In this document: one piece after another, positions 4,237 through 60,625 of the stretch
How the letters are laid out: each line of letters starts with the position of its first letter
How positions within the stretch are numbered: the first letter of the stretch is position 1
Source: an uncultured Synergistales bacterium
GTDB taxonomy: Bacteria; Synergistota; Synergistia; Synergistales; Aminobacteriaceae
NCBI GenBank assembly: GCA_905234075.1
Contig: CAJOGI010000006.1
Span: 106,127-170,126, forward strand
Direction: 5' to 3'
DNA: 64,000 bases
Made by a program: the position numbers and the translations under genes
The notes under the pieces: model-generated
Seen by the model: the letters and a program-made list of their open reading frames with translations, nothing else
Told to the model about the DNA's origin: nothing
Databases searched by the model: none

Positions 4237-5730
4237 ATGCTCGAAAAAAAAATTGAAGAGTATATTTCAAAATATCCCGAAAAAAATTGCTTATGGTTTA
4301 ATGGCGAGTGGTGGACTTCAAAAAAATTTGAAAAGCTCGCCCAAGAATGCACGGAAGTTTTAAGGGCTTCGGGATTTTCCGCAGGTCAGCGTCTTGCCGT
4401 TCTCGTACCTAACAGCCCGATGGCTTTAGCCTTGATGTACGCGGCGTGGAAGCTCGGCGGAGTTTTTTGTCCGCTCAACGAAAAGACCGGCGAAATTTCA
4501 TTAATAAAAACGCTGAAGTTATTACAGCCTTTTGCCGTCGCTCTTTCCGAAGGGGTTAAAAAAGAACTTGAGGACGCTTTGAAAAAAAATAATTTTCACT
4601 GCGCGAGATTTAACTTTGAAAAAATCACGGGCAATGAAAATTTCACGGGCGTTACGGCTCCTGCTGATGAGCTTGATAAAAAATTAGCCGTAATTTTTTC
4701 AACGTCAGGGACGACGGGCGACCCTAAGGCCGTGCCTTTAACCCACGAAAATATTTTAGACAACGTTAATGCCTGTCTTGAGACGCTTGTCGAATTAACG
4801 CCGGAAAATTCTTTGCTGAATGTCCTTCCGAATTTTCATGCGTTCGGCTTCACCGTCTGCTGTGTGCTGCCGTTTGTGCTTGGAGCTTCGCAGGTGCTTG
4901 TTACAAGTTTCATGCCTCCCTCTAACACTCTTAAAGCTATCGAAGAGGCCAAGCCCGATGTTTTATTGCTCGTGCCTACGATGTTTAGCTTTGCCGTGTC
5001 AATGCTCGAAAAGCAGGGCAAAAAATTATCGTTCGTAAAAATTTTAATAGCGGGCGGAGACAAATATAATATCAAAATGGACGACAGAATCACGGCAGCG
5101 TTCGGCGTGCAGTTAATCGAGGGCTACGGGATTACGGAATGTTCGCCGGTCTTGTCAGTCAATCCGACTCCGGCTGTGAGAAAACTCGGAACGGTCGGGC
5201 CTGCATTGCCGAGATTTGAACTTCAATTAAGAAGCGAGAGCGGAGAGTTATTAAAAATTCCCGGCGAGGGCGTTTTGTGGGTGAAGGGGCCTTCAGTAAC
5301 TCCGGGCTATTACCACGCGGACGAGTTGAATCACGAGAGATTTCAGGACGGCTGGTTTAACACGGGCGACTATGTCCAGATTGACGAGGACGGCTATATA
5401 AAAATTCTTGACCGCGTAACGGATATTATTATCGTCGGCGGCTTCAACGTCTATCCTCAGGAAGTCGAAGCAATTTTAGCCGAACACCCGGCAGTTAATA
5501 CTGCTGTCGTTGTCGGTATGCCGAACGACATCAGCGGCGAAGTCCCTAAGGCTTTTATAATGAAAAATAAAGACGCTGAAGTAACGGAGAGAGAATTAAT
5601 TAACTTCTGCAAGGCCAGACTGTCTCATTATAAAGTGCCGAGAGCCGTTGAATTTGTCGACTCGCTCCCGATTTCAGCGACAGGAAAAATTTTGAGGCGC
5701 GTACTGCGTCAGAAAGAACGGGAAAAATAG
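4237..5730 (+). CDS. AMP-forming acyl-CoA/acyl-ACP ligase, paralogue 1
   Basis: A 497-residue ANL-superfamily adenylate-forming enzyme, expected to activate a carboxylic (probably fatty) acid with ATP and pass it to CoA or ACP. It shows the P-loop IFSTSGTTGDPKAVPLTH near residue 155, the A5 motif EGYGITECSP, the hinge/A8 region GDYVQIDEDGYIKILDR, and the C-terminal catalytic lysine motif SATGKILRRVL. The ATG has GAGGGAGG upstream. It is shorter at the N-terminus than standard long-chain ligases. It is clearly paralogous to the gene at 6101, with a near-identical C-terminal stretch DIIIVGGFNVYPQEVE. Substrate unknown. Confidence 0.85.
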   Translation: MLEKKIEEYISKYPEKNCLWFNGEWWTSKKFEKLAQECTEVLRASGFSAGQRLAVLVPNSPMALALMYAAWKLGGVFCPLNEKTGEISLIKTLKLLQPFAVALSEGVKKELEDALKKNNFHCARFNFEKITGNENFTGVTAPADELDKKLAVIFSTSGTTGDPKAVPLTHENILDNVNACLETLVELTPENSLLNVLPNFHAFGFTVCCVLPFVLGASQVLVTSFMPPSNTLKAIEEAKPDVLLLVPTMFSFAVSMLEKQGKKLSFVKILIAGGDKYNIKMDDRITAAFGVQLIEGYGITECSPVLSVNPTPAVRKLGTVGPALPRFELQLRSESGELLKIPGEGVLWVKGPSVTPGYYHADELNHERFQDGWFNTGDYVQIDEDGYIKILDRVTDIIIVGGFNVYPQEVEAILAEHPAVNTAVVVGMPNDISGEVPKAFIMKNKDAEVTERELINFCKARLSHYKVPRAVEFVDSLPISATGKILRRVLRQKEREK

Positions 5731-5756
5731 TATTATAGTATTGTGATAAAATAATG

Positions 5757-5783
5757 GCGGTGGTGAGGGAGCTAACCGCCACT
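5757..5783. terminator. Hairpin between converging gene ends
   Basis: TGGCGGT and ACCGCCA form a 7-bp stem. On the minus strand it follows the 49-aa peptide gene and is trailed by ATTATTTTATC; on the plus strand it follows the first ligase. The T-run is weak in both directions, so this is only a probable terminator. Confidence 0.45.
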
Positions 5784-5806
5784 AACAAAATTTGAAAACC
5801 CCGGCC

Positions 5807-5956
5807 CTAGTGGCCACAAAATCTATCCCATAATAACAGGATAATCTTTAGCAACCAATAGATCGCAGCGGCAATGTGTCCGATCCAGGGGAGGATTGAA
5901 CGCCGCTGTCTTCTTCGGGCTTTCTTAAGACCTTTGCCTTTTTTAACAGAAGGCAT
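5807..5956 (-). CDS. Small cationic single-pass membrane peptide, 49 aa
   Basis: I do not recognise this gene. It encodes 49 residues starting MPSVKKGKGLKKARRRQRR, then a hydrophobic span (ILPWIGHIAAAIYWLLKIIL), ending DRFCGH. The start ATG is preceded by GAGGTG with an 8-base spacer, a convincing ribosome site. The layout (about 12 basic residues, then one membrane helix) resembles type I toxin peptides or membrane-active peptides, but no family match is claimed. It lies antisense between two paralogous ligase genes and has a structured leader of about 85 bases. Confidence 0.55.
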   Translation of the reverse strand: MPSVKKGKGLKKARRRQRRSILPWIGHIAAAIYWLLKIILLLWDRFCGH

Positions 5957-6050
5957 GATGTCTTCACCTCGATTCTACAGGGCGGCTCCCCGTTTGACCG
6001 ATGAGCCCTGCTTCTCACCCGGGGCTCCCTCGTAGAAAATATTATAGCAA
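5957..6050 (-). promoter_or_regulatory. Structured leader and -10 box of the 49-aa peptide gene
   Basis: On the minus strand a TATAAT box (near 6042-6047) is followed by a leader. TTCTAC-AGGG at its start can pair with CCCT-GTAGAA at its end, closing a multi-branched structure. Inside are two competing elements, GGGAGCCCC and GGGGAGCC, around GGGCTC. This looks like a cis-acting RNA or antisense-RNA target; it matches no riboswitch consensus that I know. Confidence 0.4.
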
Positions 6051-6100: not shown

Positions 6101-7603
6101 TTGAACAACTTTGATAAAAAAAGGCTCGAAGAAATTATTATCCCTAATCTTCAAGCGCGTTATGACAAAAAAAGTTTCTGGTTTAACGGCGAATGGAAAA
6201 AGGGCAAAGATTTTTTAGAAATCATTGACAACTGCGAAAAAGTATTAAAGGCAGCAGGCTTTTCAAAAGGTCAAAGGCTCGTTGTAATGCTAAAAAATTC
6301 TCCGCTGATCCCTGCGCTTTCTTTAGCAGTTTGGAAGCTCGGCGGAATTTTCTGCCCACTCAACGAAAAAGCCGGATCAATTTCTCTAAAAGGCACGCTG
6401 GATTTAATAAAACCCTTTGCCGTCATAACAGAGCATGAAATCCCGGAGCTTGAAAATTTATGGCCGTGCATAACCTGCAATATTAACGACAGAACTTTGA
6501 AAGATTTTACGGGTAAAACCCAGCCCCCCGAACCGGAAGAATACGCCGTCATTTTTTCAACGTCAGGAACGTCAGGAAACCCTAAGGCCGTGCCCCTGAC
6601 CCATAATAATTTAATCAGCAACTGCAAAGCCACAAAAGAAACTGTCTATCCGTTAAACGAGCACGACACATTTTTAACAGTCCTTCCGAACTTTCATTCA
6701 TTCGGTTATACATGTGCGACCATGCTGCCGTTATCAATCGGTGCGAAAATTGCAATAGTTCCGTCATTCCTTCCGCCTCAGCAGACAGTCAAAGCAATAA
6801 TCGAAGCTCCGACCACTATCATGTATATAGTTCCGGCGATGCTTTCATTTTTGTTGATGTCTGTCGAAAAAGGGAAATTGAAGCCGGAATTTTTAGCAAG
6901 CCAGCGCGTTATCTGCACGGGCGGAGACAGATTAAGCCCTAACATTCATAAACAGGCGTTAAAACTTTTGGAGCGCGACGTTATGGAGGGCTACGGACTG
7001 ACGGAGACCTCGCCGGTGCTTTGCATGAACCACGACTGCGAGACACAGCACACGGGAACTTCAGGACCGATAATTACGGGCTACGAGTATAAACTGAAAT
7101 CACGAGACGGGGAAGAATTACCGCGAAGTGAGCGCGAGGGCGTTTTATGGGTAAAAGGGCCTTCAATAACTCCGGGATATTTACACGCACCGGAAATCAC
7201 TGCTGAAAGATTCGACTCTGAAGGATTTTTTAACACCGGCGATTATGTTCGCTTCGATGATGACGGCTACGTAAGTATTCTCGACCGCGTTACAGATATT
7301 ATTATCGTCGGAGGCTTCAACGTTTATCCGCAGGAAGTTGAAAAAGTTTTGTGCGAGCACCCTGCCGTTCATGCGGCTGTGGTCGTCGGCGTACATCACG
7401 ACATCAACGGCGAAATTCCGAAGGCTTACGTACAACTGGAAGAAGGCGTGGAAACGACGGACCGTGAAATAATTAAATTTGCCAAAACTAAAATGGCACA
7501 CTTCAAAGTTCCGAGAAGCGTAGAATTTGTTACGGAGTTCCCGGTTTCAGCAACAGGGAAAATTTTGCGCAGGGTTCTGCGTGAAAGAGCGAAAAATAAT
7601 TAA
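6101..7603 (+). CDS. AMP-forming acyl-CoA/acyl-ACP ligase, paralogue 2
   Basis: A 500-residue paralogue of the ligase at 4237, with the same motif set: IFSTSGTSGNPKAVPLTH (P-loop), EGYGLTETSPVL (A5), GDYVRFDDDGYVSILDR (A8) and SATGKILRRVLRE (catalytic Lys). The start is TTG, ten bases after AGGAGTG; a nearby ATG at 6070 is out of frame and stops at once. Tandem duplication with divergence suggests two related acid substrates. It is transcribed separately from the first copy, since 370 bases with an opposing small gene lie between them. A hairpin terminator follows. Confidence 0.85.
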   Translation: MNNFDKKRLEEIIIPNLQARYDKKSFWFNGEWKKGKDFLEIIDNCEKVLKAAGFSKGQRLVVMLKNSPLIPALSLAVWKLGGIFCPLNEKAGSISLKGTLDLIKPFAVITEHEIPELENLWPCITCNINDRTLKDFTGKTQPPEPEEYAVIFSTSGTSGNPKAVPLTHNNLISNCKATKETVYPLNEHDTFLTVLPNFHSFGYTCATMLPLSIGAKIAIVPSFLPPQQTVKAIIEAPTTIMYIVPAMLSFLLMSVEKGKLKPEFLASQRVICTGGDRLSPNIHKQALKLLERDVMEGYGLTETSPVLCMNHDCETQHTGTSGPIITGYEYKLKSRDGEELPRSEREGVLWVKGPSITPGYLHAPEITAERFDSEGFFNTGDYVRFDDDGYVSILDRVTDIIIVGGFNVYPQEVEKVLCEHPAVHAAVVVGVHHDINGEIPKAYVQLEEGVETTDREIIKFAKTKMAHFKVPRSVEFVTEFPVSATGKILRRVLRERAKNN

Positions 7604-7917: not shown

Positions 7918-9468
7918 TTGAACAGAAAAATAATTTTCGCTCTTGCGATAGTGATATTTTTTGCTTTGCCTTTAACTTCGTTTTCTGCTGAAAATTATAA
8001 TGACGGCGATGTGATTGTTGTACTGAAGCCTTCTGACAACTCGCAGGGCGAAGTAGTTTCGTCTGCTTTTCGTGTTGCTTCTTTTGCTGCATCTTCAGGA
8101 GCATGGGTAAAAAAGACGTATCCTGACCAGTTCGGAGCAGACGGCGAGGTTTACGCGCTGCTTCACTCTGACACGAAGGACGCTAGAGAATTTGCTGAAG
8201 AATTAAAAAATAATTCCGATGTCCTTGCTGCTTCACCAAATTATAAAGTCTATTCAGCAACTCTCCCCGATGAAAGCTCTACAACGATGAATGAAGAAAA
8301 TTCTTGGGGAATGTTTGCTGTCGGTGCGCCGTATGCTTGGGACTTCAACACAGGGAGTAAAAATGTTTACGTCGCTGTAATAGACTCAGGGATCGATTAC
8401 ACAAACCCCGATTTGATAAATAATATAGACTGGACGTATTCAACGGGAACGGACACATTCGGGCATGGAACTCACGTAGCTGGAGTAATCGGTGCAGAAG
8501 GCAACAACGGAAAAGGAACGGCCGGAGTAAACTGGAACGTTAAATTAATTTCCGTAAGAGTCCTAGAGAACGGCTCTGGTACTGTTGAAAATGTAATAAA
8601 CGGCATTAATTACGTTAAAAATCTCATAAGCAATAACAATGTAAATATTAAAGCTGTTAATATGTCTTTTGAGACTTATCTCAATGTCGTACCTACTTAT
8701 GAAAATTTAGTTAAAGAGCCTCTCTGGAGAGCAATGAAAAGTTTGGATTCGCTGAATAAAGCCGTAATAGTTGTAGCCGCAGGAAATTATTCACAGACGG
8801 TAGGACAGCCAAGCTCAAAAGCTCAAGGAAGCATGATACCCGGTGCGGGCTATTATGTTTATCCGGCTTCATATAAGGGGCTTAATAACATGATAACAGT
8901 CGGGGCAATGAGCAAAGATCAAACGTTAGCGTCCTTCAGCAACAAGGGTGCTAATGTTATTGCGCCGGGTGTTAATATTTTGAGTACATATATTCAGACC
9001 TCAAAAAGCAATGTTAAAAGCGATGGCGTTGCTCTTTCTCTAATGTCAGGAACGTCAATGGCTACTCCGTTCGTTTCAGGAACTGCCGCTTTGCTCGCGT
9101 CAATAGCGTTAAATAATCATAACGTGGAACTAACGGCTTACCAGCTAAAAACAGCCATACTCGGCGGAAGCACGGCAACGGTCAGCGCAGTTAAAACCAG
9201 CGCGGGCGAGGGTATTTTCAGTATAGAGAAAGCCGTTGATTTTCAAGAACAAAATATAACAAATGCTTCAGTCATGCCTGCGTCGCCTCAAACAACAGAG
9301 TACGATAATTACGAAAGTACTGGAGTTTCGGATAAAACTAGCACCAGCAATAGTAATTCTTCTTCGGGAGGCGGCTGTAATTCTGGAATGACGGGAAGTT
9401 TAGGCGCAGTGATCTTATTATTAATTTCTTTTGTCAGCTTTGTTGACAGAAAAGAATTAAGGGAATAA
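7918..9468 (+). CDS. Subtilisin-like (S8) surface protease with Synerg-CTERM signal
   Basis: A 516-residue secreted serine protease. It has a signal peptide (FALAIVIFFALPLTSFSA), a propeptide-like region to about residue 110, and the catalytic triad: Asp in VAVIDSGIDYTNPDL, His in FGHGTHVAGVIG, Ser in SGTSMATPFVSG. The oxyanion Asn is in VVAAGN. The C-terminus carries SSSGGGCNSGMTGS, a hydrophobic helix and RKELRE, which is the Synerg-CTERM sorting layout, so the enzyme is probably processed and anchored at the cell surface. TTG at 7918 is preferred over GTG at 7909 because GAGAGG lies 11 bases before the TTG but only two before the GTG. Confidence 0.9.
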   Translation: MNRKIIFALAIVIFFALPLTSFSAENYNDGDVIVVLKPSDNSQGEVVSSAFRVASFAASSGAWVKKTYPDQFGADGEVYALLHSDTKDAREFAEELKNNSDVLAASPNYKVYSATLPDESSTTMNEENSWGMFAVGAPYAWDFNTGSKNVYVAVIDSGIDYTNPDLINNIDWTYSTGTDTFGHGTHVAGVIGAEGNNGKGTAGVNWNVKLISVRVLENGSGTVENVINGINYVKNLISNNNVNIKAVNMSFETYLNVVPTYENLVKEPLWRAMKSLDSLNKAVIVVAAGNYSQTVGQPSSKAQGSMIPGAGYYVYPASYKGLNNMITVGAMSKDQTLASFSNKGANVIAPGVNILSTYIQTSKSNVKSDGVALSLMSGTSMATPFVSGTAALLASIALNNHNVELTAYQLKTAILGGSTATVSAVKTSAGEGIFSIEKAVDFQEQNITNASVMPASPQTTEYDNYESTGVSDKTSTSNSNSSSGGGCNSGMTGSLGAVILLLISFVSFVDRKELRE

Positions 9469-9489: not shown

Positions 9490-9565
9490 GGGGCTGTAGC
9501 GCAGTTGGGAGCGCGCGACATTCGCATTGTCGAGGCCGGGAGTTCGAATCTCCTCAGCTCCACCA
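9490..9565 (+). tRNA. tRNA-Ala (anticodon CGC)
   Basis: A 76-nt cloverleaf with acceptor GGGGCTG/CAGCTCC, anticodon stem CGACA/TGTCG with loop TTCGCAT, T-arm GTTCGAATC, and an encoded CCA. It lies 21 bases after the protease stop and is followed by a hairpin terminator. Confidence 0.95.
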
Positions 9566-28652: not shown

Positions 28653-28729
28653 TGGTGGCGGCACCTGGATTCGAACCGGGGACAACGCGGGTATGAACCG
28701 CGTGCTCTAGCCAACTGAGCTATACCGCC
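28653..28729 (-). tRNA. tRNA-Met, elongator (anticodon CAT)
   Basis: A 77-nt cloverleaf with encoded CCA; acceptor GGCGGTA/TGCCGCC fully paired including a wobble; anticodon stem GCGGT/ACCCGC-type with CAT. A paired 1-72 position marks an elongator. A tRNA-Ile2 (lysidine-modified CAT) cannot be fully excluded. Confidence 0.85.
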
Positions 28730-28743
28730 ATTTTAATAATGAA

Positions 28744-28820
28744 TGGTGGCGGGGAAAGGATTTGAACCTTTGACCTTCGGGTTATGAGCCCGACGAGCTT
28801 CCAAACTGCTCCACCCCGCG
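28744..28820 (-). tRNA. Initiator tRNA-fMet (anticodon CAT)
   Basis: A 77-nt cloverleaf with encoded CCA. It has C1 unpaired with C72 and three G:C pairs next to the anticodon loop (CGGGCTCATAACCCG), the two marks of a bacterial initiator. Confidence 0.95.
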
Positions 28821-28834
28821 ATAACGTTGCTGCG

Positions 28835-28921
28835 TGGTGCCGGACGAGGGATTTGAACCCTCACGGACTTTACGCCCTCGGGATTTTAAGTCCCGTGTGT
28901 CTACCATTCCACCAGCCCGGC
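28835..28921 (-). tRNA. tRNA-Leu (anticodon TAA)
   Basis: An 87-nt class II tRNA with a long variable arm, acceptor GCCGGGC/GTCCGGC, anticodon loop ACTTAAAAT, and encoded CCA. It is the first of three clustered tRNAs on the minus strand. Confidence 0.95.
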
Positions 28922-32800: not shown

Positions 32801-34509
32801 CATACACTGCAACGGCTACAGCACTTGGTAACGCGAACTATAAGCTGCCGGAAAACGCATCGACTGCATTTACAATCGCAAAAGCCGATATTAAGCCTTC
32901 AGTAACGATTGCGGATTGGGCACATGGCGCAACTGCTTCAACTCCTGTAATCAGCGGCAATACCGGCAACGGAACAGTAACTTATCTCTACAAGTCGCAG
33001 AGCGGAACTACGGCTTATGAGAGCGCGACTGCTCCAACCAGTGCAGGAAGCTACACGCTGACGATTACAATCGCTGAAACAGATAATTACAACAGCGGAA
33101 CTGCTGAAGCATCTTTCAAGATTACCGGCGGTACAGGCGAAACTGAAAAGACTCCTGAAGAGTTAGTCGAAGAGGCAGTAAATGAAGACGGTACAATCAA
33201 TGATGATGTCATGACGCAGCTCATCGAGAATGTTGCAACGGAAACAGAAGGCGAGCTTACTCCTGACGATATCGCTAAGAATACAGCAGTTGTTAATGTT
33301 TTAGCAAATTCTGTGTCGAATACCAATAACACAACCAACGAGCTGAATCTTTCGTCTATTGCTCTTACATCAACGAAGGGTATTGCTGCTTTATTAACAG
33401 CCGTTCAAACGGGAAGCGGTGTTAATACGTCTGAGATGACACTTATTTTAAGCAAAAACTCTGACCTTAGCCAAGTCAGCGACCTCAGTGGTGTAGAAGT
33501 GAAGAGCCTTAATCTTGAGGGCAATACAAGTGTCAAAACGGTTGACCTCAAAGGCGCGACCATCACCGGCACTCTCAATATGAAAGGCATGGGCGGAACA
33601 AAAGGCGCAACTGAAACAAAAGCCACAGTTGACCTCAAGAACGCAAAAGTTGATACAGTTGACATGTCAGACAGTGCGGTTGGTACATTGACACTTGACC
33701 CAAGCAGCGATGTTAAGACGATTCAGGCTTCAGGCTCAGATCTCGCGGATATAAACTTAGCCGGAAACGAAAATATTGAATCGCTTGACATCAGTGAAAC
33801 GGAAGTAACAAAACTCGATGCGGCAGGTTGTGCTGGTCTTACAAATCTCACAGCGGCAGGCAGCAGCAATGGAACGGGAAAACTCAAGAAAATTGATATA
33901 AGCGGCTGCTCAAGCTTGACAGAACTGACAGTATCACGCAACCAGCTCTTCGGAATTAAGGGACACGGTTTGACAAGCGTTAGAACCTTCAAAGCACGCG
34001 GACAGAAGGTAAGCAACCCGTCAGCTAGTACGGTATTCAGAAGAAGCATGAACTTCTGGGAGTTCTTATGGAACTTATGGAGAGCAATCGTCATTGATGA
34101 TATTGCAAATGGGAACACTGACGAAACCGATCCCGGCGAGTATGTTGAAGGAACAAGCAGCAAGGATATTGCTCCGTTTGATGTTGAAGATATAGCGTCT
34201 GTCTATGATCCTAATAACACTTCAAACGATGCAACTCCTGACGCGGACGGAATGATAAACTTCACAACCACGCCGAACGGAATCAAGTACGATTACGTGC
34301 CTGATTTCCCGAACGCCGGACTTGCAGGCTTCATTACCGCTGCAGACGAAGACAGCGAAAACGGAATGGACGTTGAAGTATCAGACGGAACAACCGAAGA
34401 AGAGGCTACACTCGGCAATTCAAGCGGCGGCGGCTGCGATGCTGGATTTGGATTAGGGGCGTTATCTGCACTAATGCTAGTGTTTGCGACACTTAAAAAG
34501 AGACGTTAA
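29833..34509 (+). CDS. Giant repeat-rich surface protein with Synerg-CTERM signal
   Basis: A 1558-residue secreted protein. Signal peptide MQRFKWLVLLCAFVVLWSSPGWAG; residues of about 30-420 have recurring ISGG/INGG turns typical of a right-handed beta-helix. About 430-1090 hold Ig-like MBG modules (repeated LTYNG..Q.LVTAG and NAGSYT.. motifs). About 1090-1390 form irregular leucine-rich-like repeats (LNLEGNTSVKTVDL, IESLDISETEVTKL, LKKIDISGCSSL). The end SSGGGCDAGFGLGAL, a helix and KKRR is a Synerg-CTERM signal. It is probably an adhesin or surface-layer component. ATG 29833 is set by AAGGAG upstream; a TTG at 29812 precedes this site. Confidence 0.85.
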   Translation: MQRFKWLVLLCAFVVLWSSPGWAGTTHNVTVSENKIKIGETEVTSWSELLNGNTIADGDTIQFGEGEFTIQNAIKLTTSKSITIKGSGKNTKLTTNVTDVIEVSKGTLILGENFNLEGSSSLIWTHGDDNAKIVIAGANLTCKSGNYSAAFAEGTSAIDMTSGSFMHTGSANHVTLSISGAKATSTISGGIISNDQSSTLVATQGTIIINGGEIYTSSTSSVIAQNVGYCAAYSKSGGKIIMNGGTVGSQPKMGAAANGVLIATGNSSVEVNGGTIVAPNGWHAVLAHESNSKAIITGGTLTGYVGAGDGATSGSGDSMNTLTISGGEITGSVLVGWTNKKTFNNTVIISGNAKITGSIYAGYVSSDQTTIMSASNDVQITGGTIEGSVIARKNSTAKISGGTFKTKPNDDYLIEGFVAVLKDSVYNVLKAVKLTSPTLGAITYGNALSTIALTTGGTAKAIKSSADTASVDVAGTFAWQDGAITPAVSDSKNTKYKIVFTPTDTNTYETTSIDVTVTVNKAASSVTTAPAQAAASLTYNGQAQNLVTAGVASGGTMYYATDGTTFSSSIPTGTDAQSYTVSYKVSGDANHNDTEAGTVAVTISPAKADATVTANSLTYNGSEQELVTAGTVTGGTLQYAVGETAGEYSTNIPKGTNAGSYTVWYKVNADSNYSNLDPKSLIVTIASVDISSATVSLDKTTAEYTGSQQSVTISSVKVGDLTLTASDYDVTGGLTGTNAGEYTVTVTAKGNFTGTKTAVWTISKADISSSLKTEPGTPATTSSATGTKTSKTTTFTLGSGTSASAMSVDVAITTPEKFEAQVDGNFSAVISVDTILNSNKEFKNYAYSMDISGLPAWVTKTGTLTSSDANADSKGTYHHEFTLSGTPTEILENGSITFTAWITLSSDNYSGILTASVDKKVSFDVKEGTVVNPTVLEAKLAWSATSFTYTGEAQAPTATVSNLLEGDVCAVTVTVSGDKATDGKAVNAGSYTATATALGNANYKLPENASTAFTIAKADIKPSVTIADWAHGATASTPVISGNTGNGTVTYLYKSQSGTTAYESATAPTSAGSYTLTITIAETDNYNSGTAEASFKITGGTGETEKTPEELVEEAVNEDGTINDDVMTQLIENVATETEGELTPDDIAKNTAVVNVLANSVSNTNNTTNELNLSSIALTSTKGIAALLTAVQTGSGVNTSEMTLILSKNSDLSQVSDLSGVEVKSLNLEGNTSVKTVDLKGATITGTLNMKGMGGTKGATETKATVDLKNAKVDTVDMSDSAVGTLTLDPSSDVKTIQASGSDLADINLAGNENIESLDISETEVTKLDAAGCAGLTNLTAAGSSNGTGKLKKIDISGCSSLTELTVSRNQLFGIKGHGLTSVRTFKARGQKVSNPSASTVFRRSMNFWEFLWNLWRAIVIDDIANGNTDETDPGEYVEGTSSKDIAPFDVEDIASVYDPNNTSNDATPDADGMINFTTTPNGIKYDYVPDFPNAGLAGFITAADEDSENGMDVEVSDGTTEEEATLGNSSGGGCDAGFGLGALSALMLVFATLKKRR

Positions 34510-54351: not shown

Positions 54352-55050
54352 ATGAAAAAAATTTTTTTTGCTTTGTTAATTCTTTTTATTGCCTCAATGT
54401 TAAATGCTTCTGAATATAATGATACTATACTGCCGGGAAAATGGAATATAGAGGGAACAAGTTTTGTTGAAAAAGGCTTTGTCCGTATCTCGGTAAAAAT
54501 TGAGGGCGAAGTTTATCAGACTACGGAATTTCTAAAAAATCTCAATGCCAGCGTTGATAAAGTAATTGAAAATAATCAGGAAAAGGCGCGTAATGTAATT
54601 AATGAAGAAAGAAAAGTTTTGAACGGCTGCGAAATTAATTTAAGGCTTTATATTTTTGATAAGACGGGCTTTGACATAAAAGTATGGGATCACTATATCC
54701 CTAACGCCGTACAAATTCCCGTGCTGCTCCCGGAAATGAAGCCGACAATAAACGAGCCGTTTGTACTTCCTTCGATAACGAAAGATAATATTACATATAT
54801 AATAACTTTTACTTCAGAGACATCAGGAAAATTGAGAGCTAAGGGCTACGTTGATGTTGACGCGGTTGGAACGTGCGAAATTAACGCGGACTGCGCATTA
54901 TGGAGAGACGGAACAACAAAGCCTGAAACTGAAAAAGAAACAAAGAGCGGCTGTAATTCTGGCTTAGGGATTTTTTCCGCGTTTATTATTTTGTTAATAG
55001 TGATAGTGATGAATGGAAGGGGAACAAAATTTTGTTCGGAACGGATATAG
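54352..55050 (+). CDS. Secreted protein with Synerg-CTERM signal, 232 aa
   Basis: Function unknown. Signal peptide KKIFFALLILFIASMLNASE, a polar body of about 180 residues, then KSGCNSGLGIFSAF, a hydrophobic helix and basic residues: the Synerg-CTERM layout, so it is probably anchored at the surface. The tail is about 12 residues longer than usual because the gene runs 19 bases into mreB. ATG 54352 follows AGGAG by six bases. Confidence 0.7.
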   Translation: MKKIFFALLILFIASMLNASEYNDTILPGKWNIEGTSFVEKGFVRISVKIEGEVYQTTEFLKNLNASVDKVIENNQEKARNVINEERKVLNGCEINLRLYIFDKTGFDIKVWDHYIPNAVQIPVLLPEMKPTINEPFVLPSITKDNITYIITFTSETSGKLRAKGYVDVDAVGTCEINADCALWRDGTTKPETEKETKSGCNSGLGIFSAFIILLIVIVMNGRGTKFCSERI

Positions 55051-60537: not shown

Positions 60538-60625
60538 GGAAACGTGGCCGAGCGGTCGAAGGCGTGCGCTTGGAGAGCGTAAGAGCAGAAATGCTCCCAG
60601 AGTTCGAATCTCTGCGTTTCCGCCA
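60538..60625 (+). tRNA. tRNA-Ser (anticodon GGA)
   Basis: An 88-nt class II tRNA with acceptor GGAAACG/CGTTTCC, anticodon loop TTGGAGA, long variable arm and encoded CCA. Confidence 0.95.

Follow-up and report, generated by a model that had tools for sequence, protein, structure and literature searches.

A candidate family of type I toxin-antitoxin-like modules in Synergistaceae, with a predicted antisense gene opposing the mRNA of a basic one-helix membrane peptide

Results

A peptide gene and its signals in a gap between two ligase genes

In the window (the whole stretch of DNA analyzed, 64,000 nucleotides), two plus-strand ORFs for ligases (4237-5730 and 6101-7603), 50% identical and thus the paralogues that the preliminary description took them for, are separated by a gap of 370 nt. 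Within this gap, on the minus strand, lies the 49-aa ORF that was reported there together with its ribosome site; its ATG is preceded, 7 nt upstream, by GAGGTGA. The encoded product is very basic (net charge +11) and contains one hydrophobic segment (19 residues from residue 25, mean hydropathy 1.91), in agreement with the single membrane helix assigned to it before. The hairpin noted downstream of the gene is likewise present and is the probable terminator of the peptide transcript. The features of the locus, and the evidence on which each rests, are as follows.

6041-6049, minus: extended −10 promoter TGCTATAAT of the peptide mRNA, predicted start ~6034 (sequence and alignment)
5963-6040, minus: structured leader, covariance-model match (R1 model, 96.4 bits; covariation in 41 + 24 relatives)
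6037-6034/5976-5973, minus: leader helix P1
6024-6020/5992-5988, minus: leader helix P2
6019-6014/6005-6000, minus: leader helix P3
6011-6006/5982-5977, minus: leader pseudoknot P4
6024-6031, minus: GAGGGAGC at the mRNA 5′ end, complementary to the terminator loop, 5772-5765 (covariation, permutation)
5964-5970, minus: ribosome binding site GAGGTGA (sequence; conserved across the aligned units)
5807-5956, minus: 49-aa peptide ORF from ATG through the stop (ORF reading, copies, peptide properties)
5866-5908, minus: in-ORF hairpin, stem 5908-5901 with 5873-5866 (covariation); read on the plus strand, the predicted antisense terminator
~5909-5918, plus: U-rich tract of the predicted antisense terminator
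5799-5804, minus: CCGGGG immediately downstream of the stop, able to pair with the P2 5′ strand, 6024-6019 (window fold, permutation)
5752-5784, minus: probable mRNA terminator hairpin with loop GCTCCCTC at 5772-5765
5742-5752, plus: antisense extended −10 promoter TGTGATAAAAT (TRTGnTAnAAT in 92 of 98 units)
5759-5918, plus: predicted antisense RNA of ~160 nt, the antitoxin candidate (from promoter and terminator)

The unit is repeated within its genus

Searching the 1.84-Mb genome of origin, from a Synergistaceae gut bacterium, with the peptide returned seven places, and a model of the leader, applied independently of the peptide, found seven copies. When relatives are included, the genus holds ~100 units; multiple genomic copies with a conserved leader, named beforehand as support for a toxin or a mobile small-gene family, are therefore present. 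Among 61 genomes (own plus 60 relatives), 42 contained peptide matches at E ≤ 1, and the strong ones lay almost all within the genus; among named records, the nearest are Synergistaceae MAGs obtained from rumen and reticulum of goats, together with one uncultured Fretibacterium. Iterated profile searches of the fetched loci yielded 109 distinct cores, 102 of which had sufficient upstream sequence and score to be aligned. A clear leader was recognized in 100 of these; an in-frame start opening a short ORF lies downstream of it in 97 and is absent in the remaining three. The recurring unit is thus a module of ~300 nt made up of promoter, leader, peptide ORF, terminator, and a predicted gene for an antisense RNA on the opposite strand. 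Its copies are located between chromosomal genes, and tandem arrangements occur (e.g., G034:C147).

The ORF spans 38-51 aa in 94 of the 97 units, and the products resemble that of the window (n = 94; mean net charge +9.6, best 19-residue hydropathy on average 1.90). The dN/dS ratio of the peptide had a median of 0.23 in 16 close, mutually non-independent pairs, which indicates that purifying selection acts on it. Some copies (L003, L004, L026; G027:C10, G007:C25) have seemingly decayed, with the leader kept and the start lost or the frame broken.

The claim that the peptide matches no known family stood up to comparison with Rfam, Pfam, NCBIfam, PHROGs, and PADLOC. Searches of 42 members against the protein and defense-system collections gave scattered weak matches only (best E 0.0017, in a single member), and nothing credible for the peptide was found among PDB sequences. 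A holin identity suggested by PHROGs (E 0.1-0.46, in three members only) was not accepted, and a prophage or plasmid origin was dismissed after no match emerged in phages, plasmids, or viral contigs. Rfam, run over the window, gave no match at gathering score other than tRNAs elsewhere, and none that was plausible up to E 10.

Probable gain of the window copy

The ligase is present in all 43 genomes of the genus. Thirty of these loci were read, and in 29 the second ligase lay on the same contig; the two genes were 0-3 nt apart in 25 of the 29, and two further pairs had 80 and 104 nt between the genes, again without a unit. Only the genome of origin and its sister G007 carried a unit between the ligases (gaps of 370 and 361 nt). 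As the pair is uninterrupted in most relatives, the window unit would most simply have been gained as one block, that is, as a discrete module. In six genomes (G013:C143, G005:C25, G017:C54, G009:C29, G016:C4, G093:C43), units were observed at most a few hundred bases past the second ligase, in convergent orientation. Ligase 3′ ends thus look like a favored site for units, and recombination between paralogous ligase ends could have moved the unit.

A pseudoknotted leader upheld by covariation

In most of the 102 aligned units, TATAAT occupies the same column, usually as TGnTATAAT, and a leader of ~75-80 nt follows this promoter. The preliminary description had proposed that the leader closes into a multi-stem RNA. 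The window sequence by itself lent this no support, because its leader did not stand out from shuffled sequences in folding (z −0.48; 53 of 200 equally good); covariation among relatives, in contrast, upheld a structured leader. In 41 leaders of class A, the P1-P4 fold paired 89.8% of the cells, compared with 37-56% for slid versions, and 11 of 21 pairs were double-changed; in 24 leaders of class B, the respective values were 82.3% and 15 of 20. The pseudoknot helix P4 was the strongest (95.5% in class A and 96.5% in class B) and P1 the weakest (70-76%). The letters of P2, P3, and P4 vary freely while pairing persists. These covariation tests are pairwise counts that ignore the relatedness of the sequences, and row L006 of the A5 alignment is incomplete. 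A nested fold computed with RNAalifold paired 94.4% of the cells and was set aside, as only 2 of its 11 pairs showed covariation. Three leaders (L026:1649-1750, L028:1632-1730, L032:1380-1481) carry an extra hairpin of ~25 nt near P3, the fold being otherwise intact.

The covarying fold lends no support to the proposal that translation is masked within the leader, since it keeps the ribosome site outside its helices. Better candidates for masking are the covarying pairings between the two ends of the mRNA.

The 5′ end of the mRNA matches its own 3′ region

The full-length window mRNA, when folded, surpassed its shuffles (z −2.72; one shuffle equally good). When 101 units were examined for the longest stretch by which the 5′ end can pair with the unit's own 3′ UTR, its length averaged 6.60 nt, whereas permuted partners gave 5.68 nt (sd 0.10; maximum 6.04 in 20,000 reassignments); the match was weak (<6 nt) in 12 of the 101. 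In a fixed alignment of 36 units, the pairing of 5′ end and terminator loop comprised 93.4% of the cells, slid versions reaching 52-60%. Three of its pairs were double-changed, a number equalled by 20 of 500 shuffles, and its covariation score was reached by one of 500.

A second pairing joins the 5′ strand of P2 with the bases directly after the stop codon. It is short (~4 nt), and again a unit's own partner fitted better than permuted ones (96 units; 3.95 versus 3.54; 0 of 20,000), whereas for a control stretch 7,905 of 20,000 permutations scored as high. The predicted fold of the full-length window mRNA closes via this very pairing. As the P2 strand is engaged in it, the pairing is incompatible with the pseudoknot, and the mRNA might thus switch between two states.

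A predicted antisense RNA gene that ends inside the ORF

A plus-strand promoter giving antisense RNA had been named as something to look for. Immediately past the mRNA terminator, on the opposite strand, lies the extended −10 element TGTGATAAAAT, conserved in the family and matched by a predicted terminator within the ORF. On the antisense strand, 92 of 98 units contain TRTGnTAnAAT in the 137 nt that follow the stop, and no unit has this pattern on the sense strand; Markov shuffles contained it in 0.29 of 98 on average and in three at most. Plain pattern counts are given here because percentages from a best-match search are biased upward. The profile showed no −35 signal. Some units keep the motif although no U run follows their terminator hairpin, which argues that the antisense −10 is not a by-product of the terminator. 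A generic scan for promoters and terminators, which calls a promoter only with a −35 box and a hairpin only with a loop of 3-8 nt, missed all decisive signals.

The other end of the predicted antisense gene is a hairpin inside the ORF, in whose commonest form the QRR codons pair with the AAA codons. A finder restricted to hairpins of ≤40 nt had located antisense terminator candidates in 45 of 89 units, a result that led to this longer hairpin. The inverted-repeat score of the ORFs averaged 22.9, compared with 16.7 after synonymous recoding. In 36 units, 87.5% of the cells were paired, and double changes were seen in 6 of 10 pairs (0 of 500 shuffles). In class B, the hairpin is built of other letters and pairs 92 of 106 cells and 63 of 63, whereas slid versions counted 24 to 66. 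An arm-swap test was not used as proof, being biased by arms that had been chosen to match. The 10 nt 5′ of the stem consist of A to 64%, compared with 28% over the whole ORF, and at least six A adjoin the stem in 77 of 97 units. On the opposite strand, the arrangement thus reads as a stem with a U-rich tract behind it; the adjoining codons are those for lysine. In the window copy, AGAAGA takes the place of a pure A run, so that its antisense terminator may be weaker; the A run of the sister copy in G007 is unbroken.

The predicted antisense RNA has a median length of 164 nt (5-95% range 152-188; 89 units), spans the 3′ part of the peptide gene, and bears GAGGGAG in its own 5′ hairpin.

The scaffold outside the genus

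Of 185 Synergistota genomes, the first leader model matched 43. A wider model, for which 84 matches were used, reached 55 of the 185 and 12 of 62 genera. Its matches comprise 40 of the 43 genomes in the own genus, further genera from the same family, and six genomes from f4, a second family within the order. The wider model includes these outlying matches, which makes their E-values partly circular; the independent features of the units are the evidence. Of 19 units outside the genus, 8 have the antisense −10 by the strict and 16 by the loose pattern (one loose match being doubtful). The letters of their 5′ ends differ (GAGAGGG, GAAGGGG, GAGAGG, GAAGAGG, GAACAGG), each with its own complement in the 3′ region, and the observed mean of this match was reached by 3 of 20,000 reassignments. 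The outlying units also carry ORF hairpins that adjoin A runs.

In f4, the same RNA scaffold accompanies peptides without detectable similarity to the main family: the four read are alike among themselves and score below 0 bits against the main-family profile. A fifth unit, L170, had no clear peptide, and in L138 the best inverted repeat differs from the expected one. It is conceivable, although we would put it somewhat below even odds, that the RNA chassis is older than its cargo. Leader pseudoknot, 5′-3′ lock, and antisense promoter and terminator would then have been kept in two Synergistota families, with one peptide exchanged for another; QRR...AAA and the lysine run, the residues conserved best, would be set by the antisense terminator, not by protein function; and the whole would spread as a discrete module.

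Discussion

Relation to known type I systems

According to PMC12390103, type I systems had previously been found only in Proteobacteria, Firmicutes, and Tenericutes, to which a cyanobacterial one was added. That system, msoT1/msoA1 of Microcystis, likewise lies beyond the classical phyla and differs from the Synergistaceae unit in peptide, phylum, and RNA anatomy. For Synergistetes/Synergistota, no report was found in a literature search to which subscription journals and preprints were external.

The Bacillus subtilis systems txpA/ratA and bsrG/SR4 have antisense RNAs overlapping the 3′ end (PMC4147584), and there, too, the antisense runs convergently over the 3′ end of a short membrane-peptide mRNA. 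RatA, however, stops short of the coding region, whereas the antisense RNA predicted here ends inside the ORF; the Synergistaceae unit further differs by a covarying pseudoknot leader and a 5′ end matching the terminator loop, and shares no sequence match. The aapA mRNAs of Helicobacter pylori form a long-distance 5′-3′ interaction, and aapA3 is under antisense control (PMC6733600). Like the units described here, aapA/IsoA has several chromosomal copies and an antisense RNA, encoded in cis, that overlaps the ORF of the toxin; the long-distance interaction of aapA3 directly occludes the ribosome site, whereas in the Synergistaceae unit the 5′ end and the P2 strand are engaged. No sequence match connects the two. 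In the enterobacteria, a leader pseudoknot is required for translation of timP and tisB (PMC11228461), and this pseudoknot is likewise supported by covariation and situated upstream of a structured start region in a toxin mRNA. The predicted Synergistaceae antisense RNA is directed at the 3′ end, in contrast to one acting against the leader, and again no sequence match was seen.

Interpretation and rival explanations

We propose, with a probability of about 0.77, that the units form a family of Synergistaceae modules, undescribed so far and type I toxin-antitoxin-like, in which a basic one-helix membrane peptide is under antisense control. A short peptide with a membrane-spanning segment, as type I toxins have it, is encoded in nearly all units; the mRNA may have an inert form, for which two covarying 5′-3′ pairings are candidates; and an antisense gene overlapping the peptide mRNA is predicted from promoter and terminator signals. 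The assignment places the units by sequence anatomy, as type I-like and not as proven members of the class. The observed anatomy, conservation, and covariation support the type I reading of the preliminary description; transcription, switch, silencing, and toxicity are predicted parts of the model.

In the mechanism that we envisage, the minus strand would yield the mRNA for the peptide, and the plus strand an antisense RNA of ~160 nt, from a promoter just past the mRNA terminator. The antisense RNA would extend, convergent with the mRNA, across the 3′ UTR and the region coding for the helix, and would end at the in-ORF terminator, with the stem in the QRR...AAA codons and the U-tract opposite the lysine codons. 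When made, the mRNA would have its two ends joined, in an inert, circle-like form in which the 5′ end is bound to the terminator loop and the 5′ strand of P2 to the post-stop sequence. If this state changed, or if the 3′ end were trimmed, the leader pseudoknot could form; this translation-competent mRNA, with the P1-P4 pseudoknot adjoining the ribosome site, would allow the peptide to be made. Because the antisense RNA carries the same GAGGGAG as the mRNA 5′ end, it should compete for the 3′ loop and pair there first, and then along the 3′ half of the mRNA, which would form a duplex and lead to degradation or silencing. The peptide itself is probably a membrane-acting toxin.

The most serious rival keeps the antisense-controlled module and regards the peptide as a non-toxic small membrane protein (in stress, envelope, or signalling functions) under tight RNA control. 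All anatomical evidence fits it equally, as do the position of the copies between chromosomal genes and the purifying selection that the peptide is under. The large number of tandem, rapidly changing copies in a genome, copies with lost starts or stops, and the exchange of the peptide on the same scaffold in f4 are more typical of toxin modules, and we consider a non-toxic role unlikely, at perhaps one chance in six.

Two other readings are far less probable. A ligand-sensing, riboswitch-like leader with merely incidental antisense features would account for a compact, pseudoknotted RNA upstream of a ribosome site; the freedom of P2, P3, and P4 to change their letters leaves no conserved binding core evident, though, the antisense promoter and terminator are conserved independently, and Rfam offers no match, which makes this reading very improbable. 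We give equally little credence to a small mobile RNA element with the ORF as its passenger. Multiple and tandem copies and a site that is empty in most relatives would suit it, whereas an in-frame start and short ORF after 97 of 100 leaders, a dN/dS of ~0.23, the lack of a mobility gene inside the unit, and the lack of matches in phages, plasmids, and viral contigs speak against it.

If the type I-like reading is correct, such modules exist in a phylum for which the literature search found no report, and they feature a dual-coding design in which the terminator of the antitoxin is written into the toxin ORF. The ~100 divergent natural variants render every pairing testable by compensatory swaps, and the exchange of peptides on a fixed RNA scaffold bears on the origin of such toxins.

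Other features of the window

Elsewhere in the window, three large or secreted ORFs end in a similar GGGC...hydrophobic...basic tail (9436-9468, 34400-34509, and 54960-55050), a putative Synergist-type C-terminal sorting signal. A cluster of three tRNA genes is located on the minus strand (28656-28921), and single tRNAs are encoded on the plus strand at 9490-9562 and 60538-60622.
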